Shown here in pieces: positions 27,350 through 34,638 of a stretch of 64,000 bases of DNA. A program made the position numbers and the translations under genes. Position 1 is the stretch's first letter. Every line of letters begins with the position of its first letter. Origin of the DNA: Alicyclobacillus pomorum DSM 14955. Its GTDB lineage: Bacteria; Bacillota; Bacilli; Alicyclobacillales; Alicyclobacillaceae. The notes beneath the pieces are model-generated. The model worked only from the letters and a program-made list of their open reading frames with translations, did no database searches and was not told where the DNA came from. The stretch covers positions 1-64,000 of the forward strand of contig NZ_AXAR01000012.1 in assembly GCF_000472905.1 (NCBI RefSeq), in the 5' to 3' direction.

Positions 27350-27808
27350 TTAGTGTCCAATCCAGGCGCGGAACACATTGGTTGTCGGGCCTGGCGGGAA
27401 CACGACGTACAACATAAGGAATACGGCCAACCCCGTAGCGGCCGTGACGAACCAAGTCGACGCCGTCCACGGACCGATTTTCCTGTGTTTTCTAAAATTC
27501 GCTTTGAAGGCAAAAACAAGGGTAATGACTCCGAGGACAGCAGCGACGGTCGCGAGGATGGAATGTGCTTGCAGGAAGATTTGGTACGGAAGCTTGTACT
27601 GGGCCGGCCCTCCGAATGCGGTGTCGCCGTAAACGAACGTCTTCAACACATAACTGATAAAGAACAGCGCGGCGAGCACAGAGCCCGTGAGCATGAAGCG
27701 TTTGTGCGCTTCCACTCTGCGTTGGCGGATCAGGTACCAGCCAATGGCCATGGAAATTGCACTCAGAATAATGAATGCCTCATTGATATATGGCAAGGTT
27801 TGTGCCAA
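27350..27808 (-). CDS. DUF420 membrane protein (CtaM/YozB-like)
   Basis: 152-aa integral membrane protein with four hydrophobic helices (AFIILSAISMAIGWYLI, VLAALFFISYVLKTFVY, AHSILATVAAVLGVITLVFAF, WFVTAATGLAVFLMLYVVF). It shows the family histidines in VEAHKRFML and FLQAHSIL. Proteins of this family are implicated in heme-copper oxidase maturation (CtaM); that role is inferred here. The start is TTG at 27808 with AAAGGGGGG five bases upstream, because the longer frame adds a non-hydrophobic tail across the ribosome site. No cta genes are nearby. Confidence 0.8.
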   Translation of the reverse strand: MAQTLPYINEAFIILSAISMAIGWYLIRQRRVEAHKRFMLTGSVLAALFFISYVLKTFVYGDTAFGGPAQYKLPYQIFLQAHSILATVAAVLGVITLVFAFKANFRKHRKIGPWTASTWFVTAATGLAVFLMLYVVFPPGPTTNVFRAWIGH

Positions 27809-27980
27809 ATTGACCCCCCCTTTCCCGGCCGAGACCAACTACTATTCTCTCGCATTCTACCAGCAGCCCACTGGAAACCGCAAACCAATGCGAACAAGCC
27901 GCCCGTGAAAAGTCGGTCGGCTTGACAAGGGTTCATCAACTTGTCACAGACACGTGTTTCTGTGTGTCTCTACATAGGGG

Positions 27981-28024
27981 AAGTGATTTGCAAATCACTT
28001 GTTCGTCGTGATTTTGCAAATCAC
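27981..28024. repeat. intergenic palindromic repeat, variant copy E
   Basis: AAGTGATTTGCAAATCACTT (27981-28000) is a perfect 20-bp palindrome, followed by GTTCGTCGTG and ATTTTGCAAATCAC (28011-28024). It uses GTG in place of GCG next to the core. It abuts the stop codon of the CoA-binding protein. Confidence 0.8.
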
Positions 28025-28025
28025 A

Positions 28026-28448
28026 TCACTGGGGGGACTCTGACAGCAACCGTTGGTGTTCGCGCATAAAACATTTGTTGGAAACCACAGTCAACCCCGC
28101 GGCCCTGGCCGTTTGCACTGCTTCCGGGCTGTCGACACCAGGCTGTAGCCACAACGCCTTGGCGCCGGCACGAACGGCCGCTTGAGCGATGGCAGGAGCC
28201 GACCGGCCATGTACAAACACGTTGACGACATCAATCGGTTCTTCAATCTGGCTGACGGTATCCACCGCCTTGTGTCCAAGGACAGAGTCCTCGTTTGGGT
28301 TGACAGGAATGACTTTGTACCCCTGGGACTGTTGGTATTTGGCGACTTCGTAGCTCGGTCGACTTGGGTCGTTAACGAGCCCCACCGATGCAATCAGTCG
28401 AGTGTGGGACAGAAGATCCGCCATGGCTTCGTCAGACATCATCGCCAC
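28026..28448 (-). CDS. CoA-binding domain protein (YccU/YneT-like)
   Basis: 140-aa stand-alone CoA-binding (Rossmann-type) protein. LIASVGLVNDPSRPSYEVAKY is the nucleotide-binding turn, and KVIPVNPNED, VVNVFVHGRSAPAIA and ALWLQPGVDSPEAV are family motifs. It would bind CoA or acyl-CoA in the cytoplasm; no catalytic domain is attached. The start is GTG at 28448 with AAAGGGG nine bases upstream. It lies 87 bp downstream of the acyl-CoA synthetase/coiled-coil operon on the same strand, which may be functional or accidental. Confidence 0.88.
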   Translation of the reverse strand: MAMMSDEAMADLLSHTRLIASVGLVNDPSRPSYEVAKYQQSQGYKVIPVNPNEDSVLGHKAVDTVSQIEEPIDVVNVFVHGRSAPAIAQAAVRAGAKALWLQPGVDSPEAVQTARAAGLTVVSNKCFMREHQRLLSESPQ

Positions 28449-28535: not shown

Positions 28536-29078
28536 CTACGGAAGCAGGCGCAGCACACTCAACTTTCCGTTTAATTGGTGCATTTCCTGGATGGAGGTGC
28601 TTGTCATGCCATTGAGATCCGCGACACCTGCCGTCTCCTGATTTGCTTGTGCTACGGATTGTCGACTCTGCGACAACAGTTGTGCGTTTACGTTTTGCAT
28701 ACCGGACAGCTGTGCATTGATCTGGCTTGTACTGGCGTTCAGCGAATCCAGCCTGTCTATGATGGATGATTCAATGTTTCCAATTTGGCGCAAGTGGTTG
28801 TTCATGGACATCAGGTGAGACGTTGTGTCTTTTTGGTTCTGTTCAATCGCCAGCAGAGCCTGCGTTGTCTTTGTGAGTGGTTGCAGTGCTTTGGAAGTCT
28901 GTCCGACCAATTGGCTGGTGGTACCCACCGAAGTCCGGATGGCCTCCATTGTCTGATCCATCTGCGCCTGGATGGCAGTCAGCTGGAGCAGGCTGTAGAC
29001 AAACGCCGCAAGGCCCGCGACCGACAACAAAGTGACCGCGATGGTACTGATCTTCCATGGAATACGTATCGAGTTCAC
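28536..29078 (-). CDS. single-pass membrane coiled-coil protein (operon gene 5)
   Basis: 180 aa, no enzyme domain. One N-terminal transmembrane helix (about residues 10-32, ISTIAVTLLSVAGLAAFVYSLL) follows a short basic start. The rest, placed outside the cell by the positive-inside rule, is a Gln/Ser/Thr/Asn-rich helix with heptad-like hydrophobic spacing. It contains IESSIIDRLDSLNAS, close to IESSIIEKNQALQS in gene 2 of the operon, so the two are probably paralogous. It superficially resembles the helical parts of chemoreceptors, but there is no HAMP or signalling tip. It is the last of five cotranscribed genes, 37 bp after gene 4. Confidence 0.8.
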   Translation of the reverse strand: MNSIRIPWKISTIAVTLLSVAGLAAFVYSLLQLTAIQAQMDQTMEAIRTSVGTTSQLVGQTSKALQPLTKTTQALLAIEQNQKDTTSHLMSMNNHLRQIGNIESSIIDRLDSLNASTSQINAQLSGMQNVNAQLLSQSRQSVAQANQETAGVADLNGMTSTSIQEMHQLNGKLSVLRLLP

Positions 29079-29115
29079 GTTGTAGCCTCCTTCATCGAGG
29101 GGTTGCTCGGGAGGG

Positions 29116-29880
29116 TTAATGGGGCAGCAGGTTTGTGACGGAACCGAGCAAATTTCCTGCAGCTCCAGTTACTGGATTGGAACCGAGCAATTGGGAAGGG
29201 GCGCCCGACAGGGTGGCTCCAGAAGATTTGGCTCCGCTGCCAGATACGGGCGCTTTCCCGAACAGGGTGCCCAGCAGTTGCTGCAACACGTTGCTCGGTA
29301 GAGATAACAGTTTTTTCACATGACCGAAGAACTTGAATTCGTCTTCCGACACGGACATTTCGTTGAGAAGGCTTCCCATTTGGTTGTGCAGTTGGAGGGA
29401 CTGGTTCAGACTTCCTTGCATTGCCCCTTGGAGCTCGCCCAACGTTTCAGCACTTTGCTGCACAGTACCTTGCAGCTGAGTCGAATTGGAAGCCAGCGTT
29501 CTCGTCAACGACTCCGTTTGAATTTGTCGTTGCAAGATCTGTTGCATCAGAGAGACACCGTGATTCGTCAGCTGCACTTGCGTGTTCAGCTGACTTGTCA
29601 AGTCGTCGCTGGTTTGCAATTGCTGTTGCAGGATGTTGGACTGTGTATTCAGCTCTGCCAACTGGTTGGCGACGCCATTGACTTGTTTGTGCAGGGCAGA
29701 AGTATTGTTGAGCACTTGGCTGGTGGTTGTGTTCAGGTTTCCAATGAGTGAAAACAGATTGCCCCTTGGTACCGTCCATCCGCTCGCGTTTTGTACAGCA
29801 GCGTATCCACCGCCCACCAGGACCACCGCGAACGCCGCCAAGATAGCGATTCGCTTCCGCGACTCGAGTCCCAGATGCAT
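29116..29880 (-). CDS. single-pass membrane coiled-coil protein with Gly/Ser tail (operon gene 4)
   Basis: 254 aa. A basic start (LESRKRI) precedes a transmembrane helix at about residues 10-28 (IAILAAFAVVLVGGGYAAV). A long predicted coiled coil (about 45-175) is very rich in Gln, Asn, Leu and Thr. The C-terminal third differs from its siblings: a leucine-rich helix (KKLLSLPSNVLQQLLGTLF) and a Gly/Ser/Ala-rich tail ending NLLGSVTNLLPH that could insert in or lie along a membrane or partner. No family is recognised. The gene starts 19 bp after gene 3. Confidence 0.8.
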   Translation of the reverse strand: MHLGLESRKRIAILAAFAVVLVGGGYAAVQNASGWTVPRGNLFSLIGNLNTTTSQVLNNTSALHKQVNGVANQLAELNTQSNILQQQLQTSDDLTSQLNTQVQLTNHGVSLMQQILQRQIQTESLTRTLASNSTQLQGTVQQSAETLGELQGAMQGSLNQSLQLHNQMGSLLNEMSVSEDEFKFFGHVKKLLSLPSNVLQQLLGTLFGKAPVSGSGAKSSGATLSGAPSQLLGSNPVTGAAGNLLGSVTNLLPH

Positions 29881-29899
29881 AGGGTTCCCTCCCTTGTTT

Positions 29900-30418
29900 T
29901 TATGGAACCAATGCCATTTTCTGATTCATCGCATGCAAATCTGCGTTGATAGCCTGCTGGTCTGATTCCATCTGATTCAAGTTCGCGAGTACGCCGGTAT
30001 TTGTGCTCTGAATGGATTGCAGAGTCGACAGCAGCGCTTGCGCAGCGCGCGACGCCTGCGTCAGGGAGGTGCTGCTCGCGGAAGTGCTCCCTCCAAGCGA
30101 TTGAATTGCATTCGCGATACCTTGCACCGTCTGCTGCAGGATGGCCAAACCATGATCCATATCTGCCGTCTGGGAAGACAGTTGTTGGAGCGTCGAAGCC
30201 ATGTTTTCGCTCTGATGTTCGACCACTGGCAGGCCCGACAGGCTATCGGTCATTTTGCCACTCAGCGATTGCGCTTGCCGTACCTGTGAGGCCAGAACGG
30301 TTGTCTTGTCTCGCATATCCCGTTGCAGCGTGACTTGAACCAATCCGTTGATTCCGAGCCCGACGAGGCCGGCAACAAAGATCCACTTGCGCCATGGAAT
30401 CGACTTCAGGATGTTCAC
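29900..30418 (-). CDS. single-pass membrane coiled-coil protein (operon gene 3)
   Basis: 172 aa with an N-terminal anchor (about residues 12-30, WIFVAGLVGLGINGLVQV) after a basic PWRKW. A Gln/Ser/Thr-rich coiled coil runs from about 33 to the end, interrupted by a glycine/serine patch (LGGSTSASSTSL). Its ATG overlaps the stop of gene 2 by four bases (ATGA), which implies coupled translation. No enzyme or binding motif is recognised. The shared architecture with genes 2, 4 and 5 and with the tail of gene 1 suggests a common assembly. Confidence 0.8.
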   Translation of the reverse strand: MNILKSIPWRKWIFVAGLVGLGINGLVQVTLQRDMRDKTTVLASQVRQAQSLSGKMTDSLSGLPVVEHQSENMASTLQQLSSQTADMDHGLAILQQTVQGIANAIQSLGGSTSASSTSLTQASRAAQALLSTLQSIQSTNTGVLANLNQMESDQQAINADLHAMNQKMALVP

Positions 30419-30924
30419 TGTGTCACCCCCGGGACTTTCGAGTTCATTTGGTCTGTTTGCGCTTTCATATCGTGCAGCGTGGAGGCGTCGAGTTGAATCG
30501 TTTCCTTGAGTTGGCCGAGCTGGCCGCCCACCTGACCGATGGAACTGTTCAATTGACCGAGTTGACTGGCGATGGACGCGAGATTGACCTGACTCTGCTT
30601 ACCCAGTCCCACGAGGGTTTGGTTGACGTCGAGCGTCGACTGGTTCAGCGCATCAATCGCGTGGATGTTCTTGTTGATGGCCATGGTCACTTGCAATGTC
30701 AAACGCAGTTGGTCACTCATGGATTGGGTCGTTGACGCCATGCTTTGCAGTGCCTGGTTTTTTTCGATAATGGATGACTCGATGCTGGCCAATTGCTTGG
30801 TGGATTGAAGGCTCGAGTGAAGTCCATAGTCGATTTTGGCCAAATAGGTCGTCGTCATCACCTGCTGTACCAGTACGCCAACAACTACCACGTTGGCAAT
30901 GTACAGTACCCACTTTTTCCACAT
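30415..30924 (-). CDS. single-pass membrane coiled-coil protein (operon gene 2)
   Basis: 169 aa. The anchor is at residues 5-24 (WVLYIANVVVVGVLVQQVM), after MWKK. The external part is one continuous Gln/Ser/Leu-rich helix with heptad spacing, including SIESSIIEKNQALQS (shared with gene 5) and regular LGQL repeats near the C-terminus (SQLGQLNSS, GGQLGQLKET). It starts 17 bp after the acyl-CoA synthetase gene and overlaps gene 3. Function unknown; the position argues that it partners the coiled-coil tail of the synthetase. Confidence 0.8.
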   Translation of the reverse strand: MWKKWVLYIANVVVVGVLVQQVMTTTYLAKIDYGLHSSLQSTKQLASIESSIIEKNQALQSMASTTQSMSDQLRLTLQVTMAINKNIHAIDALNQSTLDVNQTLVGLGKQSQVNLASIASQLGQLNSSIGQVGGQLGQLKETIQLDASTLHDMKAQTDQMNSKVPGVTQ

Positions 30925-30941
30925 CTACAAACCCTCCCCCG

Positions 30942-33320
30942 TTACGGCATTTCATCCGCAATGACCCTGGCTTTACTGTCTGCGGTCTGTAGTTGACCCG
31001 AGATTTGACGGTTGACGTTGGTCAGTTGCGAGAGTGTTGATGAAATGCTCTGTGCAGACGTGTTCATGGTTTTGGTGCTTTGGTTTTGCTTCCCAGATGA
31101 CTCGCCTATGGAAGCCAGGTCAGTGTGCAACTTCTGCGCCAGTCCGTAGAACTGCTGGCTGAGGTCGACTTCCTGTCGACTCAGCTCTTGTAACTGAGAC
31201 AGCATGGCTTTATCCGTACCGACGCCAGCGGACAGTGTCTGCAAATCCCCTGACATTGTTTTTGTAGAACCTGCCAACTGGTCGATGTGCTGCAGGCTCG
31301 ACACAATTTGATTGTTTTCGTTGCTGATCTTGCTGTTCGTATTGTGGATGCCTTTCACCATGCTCAGGATGTCTAAGTTTTTAGGTAGATGAGGGGAATT
31401 GAGAACCGTCATGCTCGCTAGCACCACGACCGCCACGCCTCCAACGAGGAAATACAGACCGCGGCGCCGCGTTCGTCTCGGTGGTGAAGTTGTGGGTCCT
31501 TCCCTGGAGGGTATGGACGGTGACGACGGTGTATCCTCGTGTGTGGTGCTGTCGTCGCCATCGTGACCGGTGCTGAGCAACGGAATAAAGTCGGCACCTT
31601 CATACATGGCTTCAATTTGGCGTGCGTACTTTGCCATGACAATCTTGTTTCGAACTTTGAGACTCGGCGTCAAATCCCCAGACTCGACGGACAGTTCTTC
31701 TGCAATCAGAATCGCCCGCTTCGGCTGCTCAAACGGTGCAAAGCTGCGGATCCTCCGTTCTACTTCGCGTGCGTACAAATTGCGAATTTCTGGGTGAGTA
31801 ACCCAGGATTCTGGATGGTCCGGGAGATCCAATTTGGCGGCCACCGGGCGCAGTTCTTGGATGTTGGGTGACAATAGACAGGTTACGTACTTGCGGCCAT
31901 CTCCAATGAGAATGGCGGACGAGACGTAAGAACTCGTCATGATGGCAGCTTCAATGGGAGCGGGGGCGACATTTTTGCCAGTCGCAAGGACCAGGATGTG
32001 CTTTTTCCGATCCACAATCTTCACGTACTCGTCCTCAATCTCCGCAATGTCACCGGTGTGCAGCCATCCATCTTCCAACGCTTCCTGGGTTGCCTCTTCA
32101 TTTCGGTAGTAGCCGACCATGACATTCGGGCCTTGGACGAGGAGCTCTCCGTCTTCAGCAAGTCGCACAGTGACGCCTTCCACCGGTTTCCCCACGGTGC
32201 CGGGGCGGATGTCGTGCGGTGGATTCACGCAAATGACCGGAGCAGATTCCGTCATTCCGTAGCCTTCGACCACAGGGATGCCGGCGCGGAGAAAAAAATG
32301 GGCTACTTCTGCAGACAGCGCGGCGCCTCCAGAGACCACCAGGCGCATTCTGCCACCGAGTCCACGGCGGATTTTCTGGTAGACCAACCTGTCGACCAGT
32401 CGGTAGGTCAAGCCCGAGGATTTACCTTCACGAATTCCAGACTGCAGCAAGGAACGGATGGGGGATGGCAAATGAGCCACCGTGTCCATGACTTTTCCGT
32501 AGACTTTCTCCAACAGTCGAGGTACGGTAACGAGAATGGTTGGGCGAACTTCCAGGATGTTTTTCGGGATGGACTCGATGTTTTCTGCATACGCAATGCA
32601 ACTGCCTGCCGACAGTGCGGCGAATTGACCGACGGTCCGTTCAAAGATGTGCGACAGCGGGAGGTAGGACAGCCCAACGTCGGTGGGGTACACAGGCGTC
32701 ACGTCGAGGCACGCTTTGACGTTGGAAACGAGGTTTCGATGGGTCAGCATGACGCCTTTCGGCTGGCCGGACGTCCCGGAGGTGTGAACGATGGTGGCGA
32801 GTGCACCTGCATCGATATCTGCCGGGGACTTCTTCGACCATGGGACTTCGTGACCGAGTGTGATCAGTTCATCGAATCGATGCCAAGGCAAGCCGGAGGT
32901 CTCCACATCATGCATGTTTTCGTGCCGGATGACCACGGCCAGCTCGAGGTTTGGAGGACGTCGGGAGTGAATTTTCGCGTACTGCTGTTCATCCTCCACA
33001 ATACAGACGGACACTTCCGCGTTTGTCAGAATGTACTCTACCTGATCTGCGGGCAGCGTCGGATACACAGGAACCACCACGGCGCCTATAGCCAGGACGG
33101 CGTAGTCGGACACGGCCCATTGCGGGCAATTGTTTGCCATAATGCCAACCTTGTCACCCGCCTTGACGCCAATCTGACGAAGACCGCCAACACACGCCAG
33201 GATGGACTTCCAGAATTCGTCGTACGTCATGGAGACGTAAACGTCCCCCTGTTTGTAGCGGAGACACTCCTTCCCTCCGTGCGCACGGACACTGTGTTCC
33301 AAAAGGTCTATCAGGTTCAC
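30942..33320 (-). CDS. long-chain acyl-CoA synthetase with C-terminal membrane anchor and coiled coil (operon gene 1)
   Basis: 792 aa. Residues 1 to about 590 are a complete AMP-forming fatty acyl-CoA ligase of the long-chain type. Motifs are the P-loop TSGTSGQPKGV (180-190), VVEGYGMTESAP, DGWLHTGDIAEI, IVDRKKHILVLATGKN and the C-terminal LTPSLKVRNK with the catalytic-type lysine. A Ser/Thr/Pro linker and the basic RRTRRR follow. Then come one transmembrane helix (about 619-641) and about 150 residues of Gln/Ser-rich coiled coil, predicted outside the cell. FadD-type enzymes normally end near residue 600, so the anchor and tail are additions. The start is GTG at 33320 with GAGGGGGG seven bases upstream. 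The enzyme would activate fatty acids at the inner membrane face. Confidence 0.9.
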   Translation of the reverse strand: MNLIDLLEHSVRAHGGKECLRYKQGDVYVSMTYDEFWKSILACVGGLRQIGVKAGDKVGIMANNCPQWAVSDYAVLAIGAVVVPVYPTLPADQVEYILTNAEVSVCIVEDEQQYAKIHSRRPPNLELAVVIRHENMHDVETSGLPWHRFDELITLGHEVPWSKKSPADIDAGALATIVHTSGTSGQPKGVMLTHRNLVSNVKACLDVTPVYPTDVGLSYLPLSHIFERTVGQFAALSAGSCIAYAENIESIPKNILEVRPTILVTVPRLLEKVYGKVMDTVAHLPSPIRSLLQSGIREGKSSGLTYRLVDRLVYQKIRRGLGGRMRLVVSGGAALSAEVAHFFLRAGIPVVEGYGMTESAPVICVNPPHDIRPGTVGKPVEGVTVRLAEDGELLVQGPNVMVGYYRNEEATQEALEDGWLHTGDIAEIEDEYVKIVDRKKHILVLATGKNVAPAPIEAAIMTSSYVSSAILIGDGRKYVTCLLSPNIQELRPVAAKLDLPDHPESWVTHPEIRNLYAREVERRIRSFAPFEQPKRAILIAEELSVESGDLTPSLKVRNKIVMAKYARQIEAMYEGADFIPLLSTGHDGDDSTTHEDTPSSPSIPSREGPTTSPPRRTRRRGLYFLVGGVAVVVLASMTVLNSPHLPKNLDILSMVKGIHNTNSKISNENNQIVSSLQHIDQLAGSTKTMSGDLQTLSAGVGTDKAMLSQLQELSRQEVDLSQQFYGLAQKLHTDLASIGESSGKQNQSTKTMNTSAQSISSTLSQLTNVNRQISGQLQTADSKARVIADEMP

Positions 33321-33439
33321 ACGGATACCCCCCTCGAGTGACGACAACATCATCTATAAGCTTCGTGGGAATGTTCAGTTTTTTGTCACTCTTTTTATAC
33401 TTTTTGGAACCTACATAGAACGAAAAGCATGGGCATTTC

Positions 33440-33877: not shown

Positions 33878-34083
33878 GACTTCACCTCGTATTGTCACTC
33901 TCGCATCTGTGGCGTTTGGTTAGTGTACGCACCAAGTTGCTTCGTCATGTCAGTGTTGGTGAAGTTCCCGTGTAGAAATGGTCTGGAAACGCCTTGCATG
34001 GCAAAAATCACTTGAATGGACTGGGGCGAAAATGGTGACGCTGACAACCGTCTCGCATCAACCTTTCGAAGGAGGCGTTGTGG

Positions 34084-34638
34084 ATGCCGCTCTTAACCCA
34101 TGAAGCCTGTGAACTGAATGAACTGCTCATGAGTTGTGTCAACAGCATCAATTCCATGGGGTTATTTCTCAGCCAAGTGAAGGACCCTGAGTTGAAGGGG
34201 ATCATTCAGAAGCACATGGCTGCGCACATTCAAGACTACAACATGAAAGTGGAATGGGCGACGAAAGGCACCAGTACGCAGCAGCTTCAAGTACCGTCAA
34301 TGCCTTCGCAAACGGCGGGCGGGACAAACAAATTACCACAGGCGGTGACACCGAATCCGGACATGACTGCGCTCGATGACCGGTCCGTCGCTACGTCGTA
34401 TCTACTGACGTTGAAGCGTGCAGGTCGCGATTACGCATGGGCCACATTCGAATGTTCCGATCCGCAGCTGCGAACATTTCTCGAGGATGCCTTTACGATG
34501 TGTTCGCGGCACGCGTTCGAAGTCGCCGAGTACATGGTGAAGCACGGATGGTATCCTTCGGAGCCGGCTTCGAGTACTTTGCTGCAGAAGATGCACCAAA
34601 CGTACCAATCGGTTCCAGAACCCGTAGCTGTGCACTAG
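34084..34638 (+). CDS. CotF-family spore coat protein
   Basis: 184 aa, two related helical halves joined by a Pro/Thr-rich linker (about 65-100). The first half has LNELLMSCVNSINSMGLFLS and IQKHMAAHIQDYN; the second has ALDDRSVATSYLLTLKRAGRDYAWATFECSDP and AFEVAEYMVKHGWYP. Both patterns belong to the CotF-like coat family. It would be made in the mother cell during sporulation and is good evidence that the organism sporulates. The ATG at 34084 has GGAGG eight bases upstream. Monocistronic, with a strong terminator. Confidence 0.85.
   Translation: MPLLTHEACELNELLMSCVNSINSMGLFLSQVKDPELKGIIQKHMAAHIQDYNMKVEWATKGTSTQQLQVPSMPSQTAGGTNKLPQAVTPNPDMTALDDRSVATSYLLTLKRAGRDYAWATFECSDPQLRTFLEDAFTMCSRHAFEVAEYMVKHGWYPSEPASSTLLQKMHQTYQSVPEPVAVH

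Follow-up and report, generated by a model that had tools for sequence, protein, structure and literature searches.

A predicted membrane-rooted coiled-coil stalk encoded with a long-chain acyl-CoA synthetase in Alicyclobacillus pomorum and other Bacilli

Positions 1 to 64,000 of contig NZ_AXAR01000012.1 of Alicyclobacillus pomorum DSM 14955 (the window, meaning the whole stretch of 64,000 nucleotides that was analysed) carry five closely spaced minus-strand open reading frames between 28536 and 33353, with intergenic gaps of 17, -4, 19 and 37 bp. The first encodes a predicted acyl-CoA synthetase (ACS) that runs on into a transmembrane (TM) helix and a coiled-coil tail, here called chain C0, and the other four encode small coiled-coil membrane proteins, C1 to C4. 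This five-gene assembly of an ACS and coiled coils matches no known family and is an undescribed bacterial assembly; among the titles and abstract beginnings covered, for the most part from outside the subscription literature, no description of such a system was found. The explanation that we favour, and to which we would give somewhat less than an even chance as a whole, is that the five chains form a stalk that holds the ACS at its base and captures and activates fatty acids. To our knowledge, it is poorly understood how fatty acids, being insoluble in water, pass a thick wall and reach CoA activation in single-membrane bacteria, and the operon offers a compact, testable candidate for it.

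Architecture of the five encoded proteins

The ACS has two Pfam domains over their cut-offs, PF00501 (AMP-binding, 273.9 bits) and PF23562 (AMP-binding_C_3, 42.3 bits). TSGTSG-PKG, YGMTE, TGD and Lys566, which we take to be the catalytic motifs of ACS enzymes, are invariant in all 18 aligned ACS rows (residues are counted from 33353, in the 803-residue frame). By its domains and motifs, the window enzyme is an ACSL/FadD-type long-chain acyl-CoA synthetase, its activity being predicted. The start codon GTG at 33320 is preferred over ATG at 33353 because relatives begin there, the equivalent start being exact in 10 of 17 aligned relatives and within two residues in 5 more (starts were chosen by script). 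Hydropathy places the TM helix at residues 633-651, with the tail running onward to residue 803 and a second peak at 84-102 inside the enzyme. The 15 residues preceding the helix have a mean net charge of +3.3, and the positive-inside pattern is seen in 13 of 14 rows, which supports a topology with the enzyme on the inside.

C1 to C4 each have one N-terminal TM helix as judged by hydropathy, and all five coils show a hydropathy period of 3.48 residues that was equalled in strength by none of 500 shuffles of each chain. C3 carries in addition a Gly/Ser-rich C-terminal extension which, by eye, closes in a short Leu-rich motif. A preliminary description made from the window's letters alone had claimed five tightly spaced or overlapping minus-strand genes, an ACS extended by a basic linker, one TM helix and a coiled-coil tail, and four small proteins consisting of one N-terminal helix plus a coiled coil each. 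The genes were recovered at the same positions and with the same gaps, and Pfam domains, hydropathy and periodicity bear out the layout of the proteins; the ACS start given there, 33320, is probably right, since the starts of relatives coincide with it.

No Pfam or NCBIfam family exceeded its cut-off for the four small proteins, and a phage origin was rejected because no PHROG matched them at E ≤ 0.001. Kinship with chemoreceptors or other signalling proteins, which the preliminary description had raised as a function that homologues might already have been assigned, was likewise rejected, as no chemoreceptor, HAMP or kinase domain scored over its cut-off in the five proteins (Pfam, and NCBIfam among the matches listed, which for the ACS are the best 25 of 103 families). 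A search for solved relatives of C4 gave one weak coiled-coil match, and library scans with members of the C4, C0 and C1 families produced scattered weak coiled-coil matches only. C1, C2 and C4 are probably paralogues, because profile comparison relates them mutually at 91-96% probability and C2 of the window is retrieved by the C4 profile at 8e-9, although the general likeness among coiled coils calls for caution.

The coils provide a striking example of evolution at locked length, as insertions and deletions (indels) are nearly absent from the five chains even between distant families. For each chain, 33 rows were aligned, drawn from the window, 13 loci of its order and 19 loci of its class (excluding L040, L057 and L067-L069 of the order and L108, L140 and L141 of the class; L and G labels denote loci and genomes). 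Relative to the window, indels in the coils of C0, C1, C2, C3 and C4 were found in 0, 1, 1, 0 and 0 of the 33 rows, respectively, the two rows being a shortened C1 of L111 and a shortened C2 of L110, and coil identity to the window drops to 20-24% among these alignments. Between the membrane and a C-terminal motif that contains Lys, C0, C1, C2 and C4 hold 20 heptads each, by arithmetic a length of about 21 nm if each residue adds 0.15 nm. Hand-written end patterns for these four chains fit 33, 33, 31 and 28 of the 33 rows. The frame set by the Lys motif ranked 1st of 125 in residual correlation (all-position test with order-level profiles, C3 not included).

In C0, C1, C2 and C4 the even layers of the core have a lower hydrophobicity at a and d than the odd ones; the difference is clear only for position a of C0 and of C2, where 173 and 36 of 5000 permutations were as extreme (C1, 1759; C4, 930). 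Conserved polar core residues are found in layer 10 (Asn, Glu and Ser/Thr) and in layer 18 (Asn, Gln and Thr). Charged residues make up 12-16% of the coils in the window's order, compared with 20-24% in other families. The low charge would fit an outward exposure of the coils in acid-loving bacteria and is possibly an adaptation to acid surroundings. The chains C0 to C4 also represent natural parts for the design of obligate hetero-coiled-coils.

Table 1. Coordinates of the operon, its protein segments and the adjoining downstream gene in the window.
Feature	Position	Strand	Remarks
ACS fused to coiled-coil chain C0	30942..33320	-	792 amino acids from GTG 33320; 803-amino-acid frame from ATG 33353
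ACS catalytic part (AMP-binding + AMP-binding_C_3)	31584..33320	-	TSGTSG-PKG, YGMTE, TGD and Lys566 invariant
Basic linker, variable, from enzyme to TM helix	31458..31583	-	Many alignment gaps here
TM helix of ACS/C0, residues 633-651	31401..31457	-	Hydropathy
Coiled-coil tail (C0 chain), 20 heptads, terminal E-M-P	30945..31391	-	
C1, 169 amino acids	30415..30924	-	TM helix + coiled coil, end MN-x-K-x-P...
C2, 172 amino acids	29900..30418	-	TM helix with nearly invariant Asn24 + coiled coil, end MN-x-K...P
C3, 254 amino acids	29116..29880	-	TM helix + coiled coil + Gly/Ser-rich extension with terminal Leu-rich motif
C4, 180 amino acids	28536..29078	-	TM helix + coiled coil, end LN-x-K...LLP
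CoA-binding protein (CoA_binding_2)	28026..28448	-	Downstream of C4; adjoins the operon in several relatives

Distribution of the operon and its link to the synthetase

Among 59 genomes of the window's order, Alicyclobacillales, the C4 profile found C4 intact in 19 and a remnant in G038, and the tail profile found the same 19 genomes and G027, whose contig ends inside the tail, three more matches being weak. Tail and C4 are jointly present in 19 of the 59 genomes, and in all 19, the window included, C1 to C4 follow one order on one strand. The layout of an ACS with a C-terminal helix and coil beside such small proteins, for which the preliminary description had suggested a context search, thus recurs.

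Several genomes of the order carry damaged copies. G011 (L040, 8960-9300) has the complete operon except that the ACS tail seems to be frameshifted at its end and the C1 frame is shortened, owing to either decay or a sequencing error. In the other species of the window's genus, G001 (L057, L058), the ACS gene is broken up into several frames on two contigs; by eye, one ACS piece lies near a transposase-like frame at a contig end. In G038 (L070, G038:C69, 8871-9224), a congener of G039, the ACS start has a frameshift and a stop, the end of C4, which contains stops, comes within the next 50 bases, and the operon seems to have been lost as a block. G026, of the window's family, is without the operon; its squalene-hopene cyclase agrees at all 631 aligned residues with a solved enzyme, that of Alicyclobacillus acidocaldarius, which points to Alicyclobacillaceae as the family.

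Three genomes of a single genus (G004, G019 and G025) encode an ACS of 603-605 amino acids in which the tail is absent. C1 to C4 were not found at these ACS loci, and profile searches found C4, tail and C1 nowhere in the three genomes, which retain the window's flanking genes (DUF420, CoA-binding, DUF2512 and Coat_F). As the flanks are kept while the tail and C1 to C4 are jointly missing, the tail and the small genes appear to come and go together. In the ACS tree the three short-ACS genomes are nested inside the long group, but a single clade of the long rows is compatible with a topology test (p 0.49); for the tail in this genus, loss is favoured over late gain by the shared flanking genes.

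In the class Bacilli, the tail profile matched at least 34 of 398 genomes at E ≤ 1e-15 (at least 57 at E ≤ 0.001), and the C1 profile matched the same 34 at E ≤ 1e-15 (at least 61 at E ≤ 1e-4), the counts being lower bounds as at most 8 or 9 candidates were scored per genome. Twelve of the 34 belong to the window's order and 22 lie outside it. In these 22 the tail is a separate frame, C0, of 163-227 amino acids, and by sequence the window protein is a fused form of ACS and C0. The fixed order C0-C1-C2-C3-C4 is found in 21 of the 22 class loci; the remaining one (G496, L108) is decayed, with broken pieces of ACS, C0, C1 and C2, and C3 and C4 were not found at this locus. A sample of 398 genomes of the phylum gave a C1 match at E ≤ 1e-15 in the window's own genome only, together with 13 other weak matches (4e-6 to 9e-5), most of them within long frames, and the order's C4 profile gave the same picture.

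At 12 of the 22 class loci an ACS gene directly precedes C0 (L101, L103, L105, L108, which is decayed, L112-L115, L117, L119, L120 and L140). In the 11 intact adjacent ACSs a hydrophobic segment lies a few residues short of the C-terminus; within their last 60 residues the highest mean hydropathy over 19 residues ranges from 1.31 to 2.62 and exceeds 1.6, the threshold applied for a membrane helix, in 9 of the 11 (L101, 1.31, and L103, 1.42, lie below it). Genomes of the other ten loci were searched with one ACS query, G582 excluded, and 7 of the 9 encode a family ACS at another place; their best copies reach 0.04-0.65 on the same measure. The copy of G746, about 3 kb from the operon, is frameshifted. 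Because only adjacent copies have the hydrophobic C-terminus, the ACS appears to be membrane-anchored when it adjoins the stalk genes. In the window's order C0 itself is the predicted anchor, fused there and a separate gene elsewhere. Fusion in the window's order and separate anchoring in other families connect a coiled-coil complex that is so far unnamed with a reaction that has a name.

A proposed stalk and competing explanations

Joint assembly of C0 to C4 with the ACS is well supported, if indirectly, by the fusion, the neighbouring separately anchored genes, the fixed gene order and the length-locked coils, in agreement with the bundled membrane complex suggested in the preliminary description. 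The constant set of five chains, each locked in length, would be explained most simply by assembly into a single parallel stalk. We propose that C0 and C1 to C4, five distinct chains, would lie parallel and side by side in one hetero-oligomer, most simply a hetero-pentamer. Each chain would be rooted by its N-terminal helix and extend to the outside over some 20 heptads (about 21 nm), a length that would take it into or through the cell wall, and C3 would contribute a flexible tip. The ACS would be located at the foot of the stalk, facing the cytoplasm, fused to C0 in the window's order or held by its own C-terminal helix in other families. Long-chain fatty acids captured outside by the stalk would be handed to the ACS and trapped as acyl-CoA (vectorial acylation). 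The parallel assembly, the stoichiometry, the outward orientation of C1 to C4, the contact between ACS and stalk, the nature of the cargo and its transport along the stalk are what we infer from the genes.

Fatty acids are the presumed cargo because of the ACS, FadR-like regulators and acyl-CoA dehydrogenase counts. Thirty flanking proteins, chosen from 16 of the 17 listed loci, were scanned against families. TetR regulators lie upstream of the operon at six loci (L106, L109, L110, L116, L119 and L120), and the top NCBIfam match of each is FadR (NF053878), the fatty-acid regulator of Bacillus, at 42-74 bits and thus below its cut-off of 200. Within the order, the 19 genomes with the operon have a median of 12 acyl-CoA dehydrogenase matches versus 6.5 in the 40 without it (p 9e-6; per megabase, p 0.01, in statistics that ignore phylogeny).

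Several results weigh against this explanation. A common register of the chains is suggested, not proved, because a stricter, core-only test with class-wide profiles ranked the in-register frame 36th of 729 (C3 not included). The positive-inside pattern in C1, C2, C3 and C4 (6 of 15, 10 of 16, 9 of 16 and 11 of 16 rows) lends weak support to their orientation. The ACS does not appear to be an obligatory part, as no ACS directly precedes C0 at 10 of the 22 class loci, and in G607 and G524, the two genomes in which an S-layer-homology (SLH) protein precedes C0, the one query found no ACS of the family at E ≤ 1e-60. The stalk can thus exist without an ACS of this family, which in these two genomes would imply a cargo common to other enzymes or a wider, perhaps structural, role. 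The window's own TetR, 2 kb from the operon, scores higher with RutR (54.2 bits) than with FadR (33.4 bits), and the dehydrogenase association may owe something to shared descent. Structure models made without deep alignments are of little help: the single-sequence ACS model was useless, with a predicted local distance difference test (pLDDT) score of 37.8, and a model of C2 with two window paralogues was mostly helix at a poor pLDDT of 66.6. Positions a and d are hydrophobic and e and g mainly polar, which does not point to a wide barrel. A hetero-pentameric α-helical barrel of about 21 nm, with a bore carrying fatty acids across the wall to the fused synthetase, is in our view a doubtful elaboration; if true, it would be a single-membrane counterpart of Mce and FadL import, independently evolved from coiled coils.

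Among the other explanations, a wall-spanning tether or scaffold survives best, although we consider it rather unlikely. It would link the membrane to the S-layer or a secondary wall polymer, with the ACS docked for local lipid work and nothing transported. SLH proteins are encoded directly before C0 in L106 and L107 and after C4 in L103, which strengthens the surface structure that the preliminary description had offered as an alternative. The two genomes with an SLH protein before C0 are those in which no family ACS was found at E ≤ 1e-60, the C3 extension looks flexible, and connectors combining SLH and coiled coil are reported from other bacteria (PMC9388160, PMC10628300). However, SLH neighbours are present in just 3 of 16 loci, with partly scanned flanks, a tether would not need five distinct chains, and the fusion or anchoring of the ACS and the FadR-like regulators would be left unexplained by a pure tether.

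It is improbable that the operon merely co-expresses five envelope rods, each a separate homo-oligomer, with the ACS fusion serving as a mere membrane anchor. Coiled coils often homo-oligomerise, the core-only register test is not decisive, and the stoichiometry is as yet predicted only; yet all five parts keep one arrangement in 19 genomes of the order and at 21 of the 22 class loci, coil lengths are equal and locked, three genomes lack the parts jointly and G038 seems to have lost them as a block, all of which argues for a common assembly. Least probable, by a little, is a sensor or regulator in which an outside signal (fatty acid, pH or wall state) would alter the stalk, which in turn would change how active the ACS is or where it lies. 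Polar residues that are buried and conserved could serve as switches and a long coiled coil beside a TM helix is typical of signal transmission, but C1 to C4 are almost without a cytoplasmic part and none of the signalling domains searched for above exceeded its cut-off in the five proteins.

The preliminary description had also held that occurrence of the tail and the small proteins in unrelated contexts would speak against a complex; this applies by half, as the small proteins do occur without an adjacent ACS, but together with the tail.

Known systems offer analogies for the proposed stalk. In the vectorial acylation of Escherichia coli by FadL and FadD, activation by the ACS is the trap that drives uptake, as it would be here; in contrast, no outer-membrane FadL is expected in a single-membrane group, and FadD is not known to be fused or tail-anchored. 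The LcfA/FadR regulon of Bacillus likewise has an ACS gene with a TetR-type FadR nearby, comparable to the six TetR proteins above, whose best match is FadR below cut-off; we know of no such coiled-coil genes in that regulon. The SLH-coiled-coil tethers SlpA and OmpM reportedly combine a coiled coil with wall binding by SLH, as some loci of the present system do. SLH and coil lie on one polypeptide in SlpA and OmpM, tied to an outer-membrane barrel, whereas the SLH proteins here are separate neighbours at three loci, and Pfam found no SLH domain in the window proteins.

COMP of the animal matrix has a short, homo-pentameric coil, unlike the roughly 20 heptads and five different membrane-rooted chains here. 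Its pentameric coiled coil binds fatty acids in its channel, and Met, Thr/Asn and Gln core positions are key (PMC3487892). Conserved polar core residues in a heptad coiled coil are found here as well, and both would have five chains if the pentamer holds. The distinct chains of the mycobacterial fatty-acid importer Mce1 form a hetero-hexameric needle with a hydrophobic tunnel and are encoded with a synthetase gene, FadD5, whose protein was absent from the purified complex (PMC9882608). Like the six MCE chains of Mce1, several distinct chains with a TM helix and a long helical part are encoded here with an ACS gene, the present system being known from its genes alone. The differences are that the heptads are continuous here and the Mce1 modules kinked, that the ACS is fused or anchored whereas FadD5 was absent from the purified complex, and that the operon has no YrbE permease or MceG ATPase. 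No MCE (MlaD) domain was found in the five window proteins (Pfam, E ≤ 0.1); the MCE family TIGR00996 reached 13.7 bits with C4 against a cut-off of 140.5 and matched 2 of 25 C1 members weakly (best 5e-4). A YrbE-type permease was found neither in the operon, C1 to C4 having one TM helix each, nor among the 30 flanking proteins scanned. COMP and Mce1 are analogies for the stalk and not relatives.

Neighbouring genes and genome context

Promoter and terminator scans gave no excess over shuffled sequences. Downstream of the operon, a DUF420 membrane protein and the CoA-binding protein of Table 1 (together 27350-28448) are kept in several genomes, including those without the tail and C1 to C4, and the CoA_binding_2 gene is possibly part of the operon's transcript. 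Neighbouring FUR, DUF2614 and adenylosuccinate synthetase genes look like plain lineage synteny. FakB/DegV was rejected as a linked system, since by eye its presence tracks lineage and not the operon.

The SLH proteins of L106 (7708-9030) and L107 (9723-11219) begin and end with segments rich in Leu, Pro and Gly which, by eye, look like the Leu-rich motif at the C-terminus of C3. Upstream in the window, at 34078-34638, lies a gene for a Coat_F spore-coat-like protein, which adjoins the operon in several relatives. Elsewhere in the window's genome, the squalene-hopene cyclase (L087, L088; G000:C12:45764-46709) is represented by two overlapping matching pieces, one of them with a stop, and this gene may be broken.

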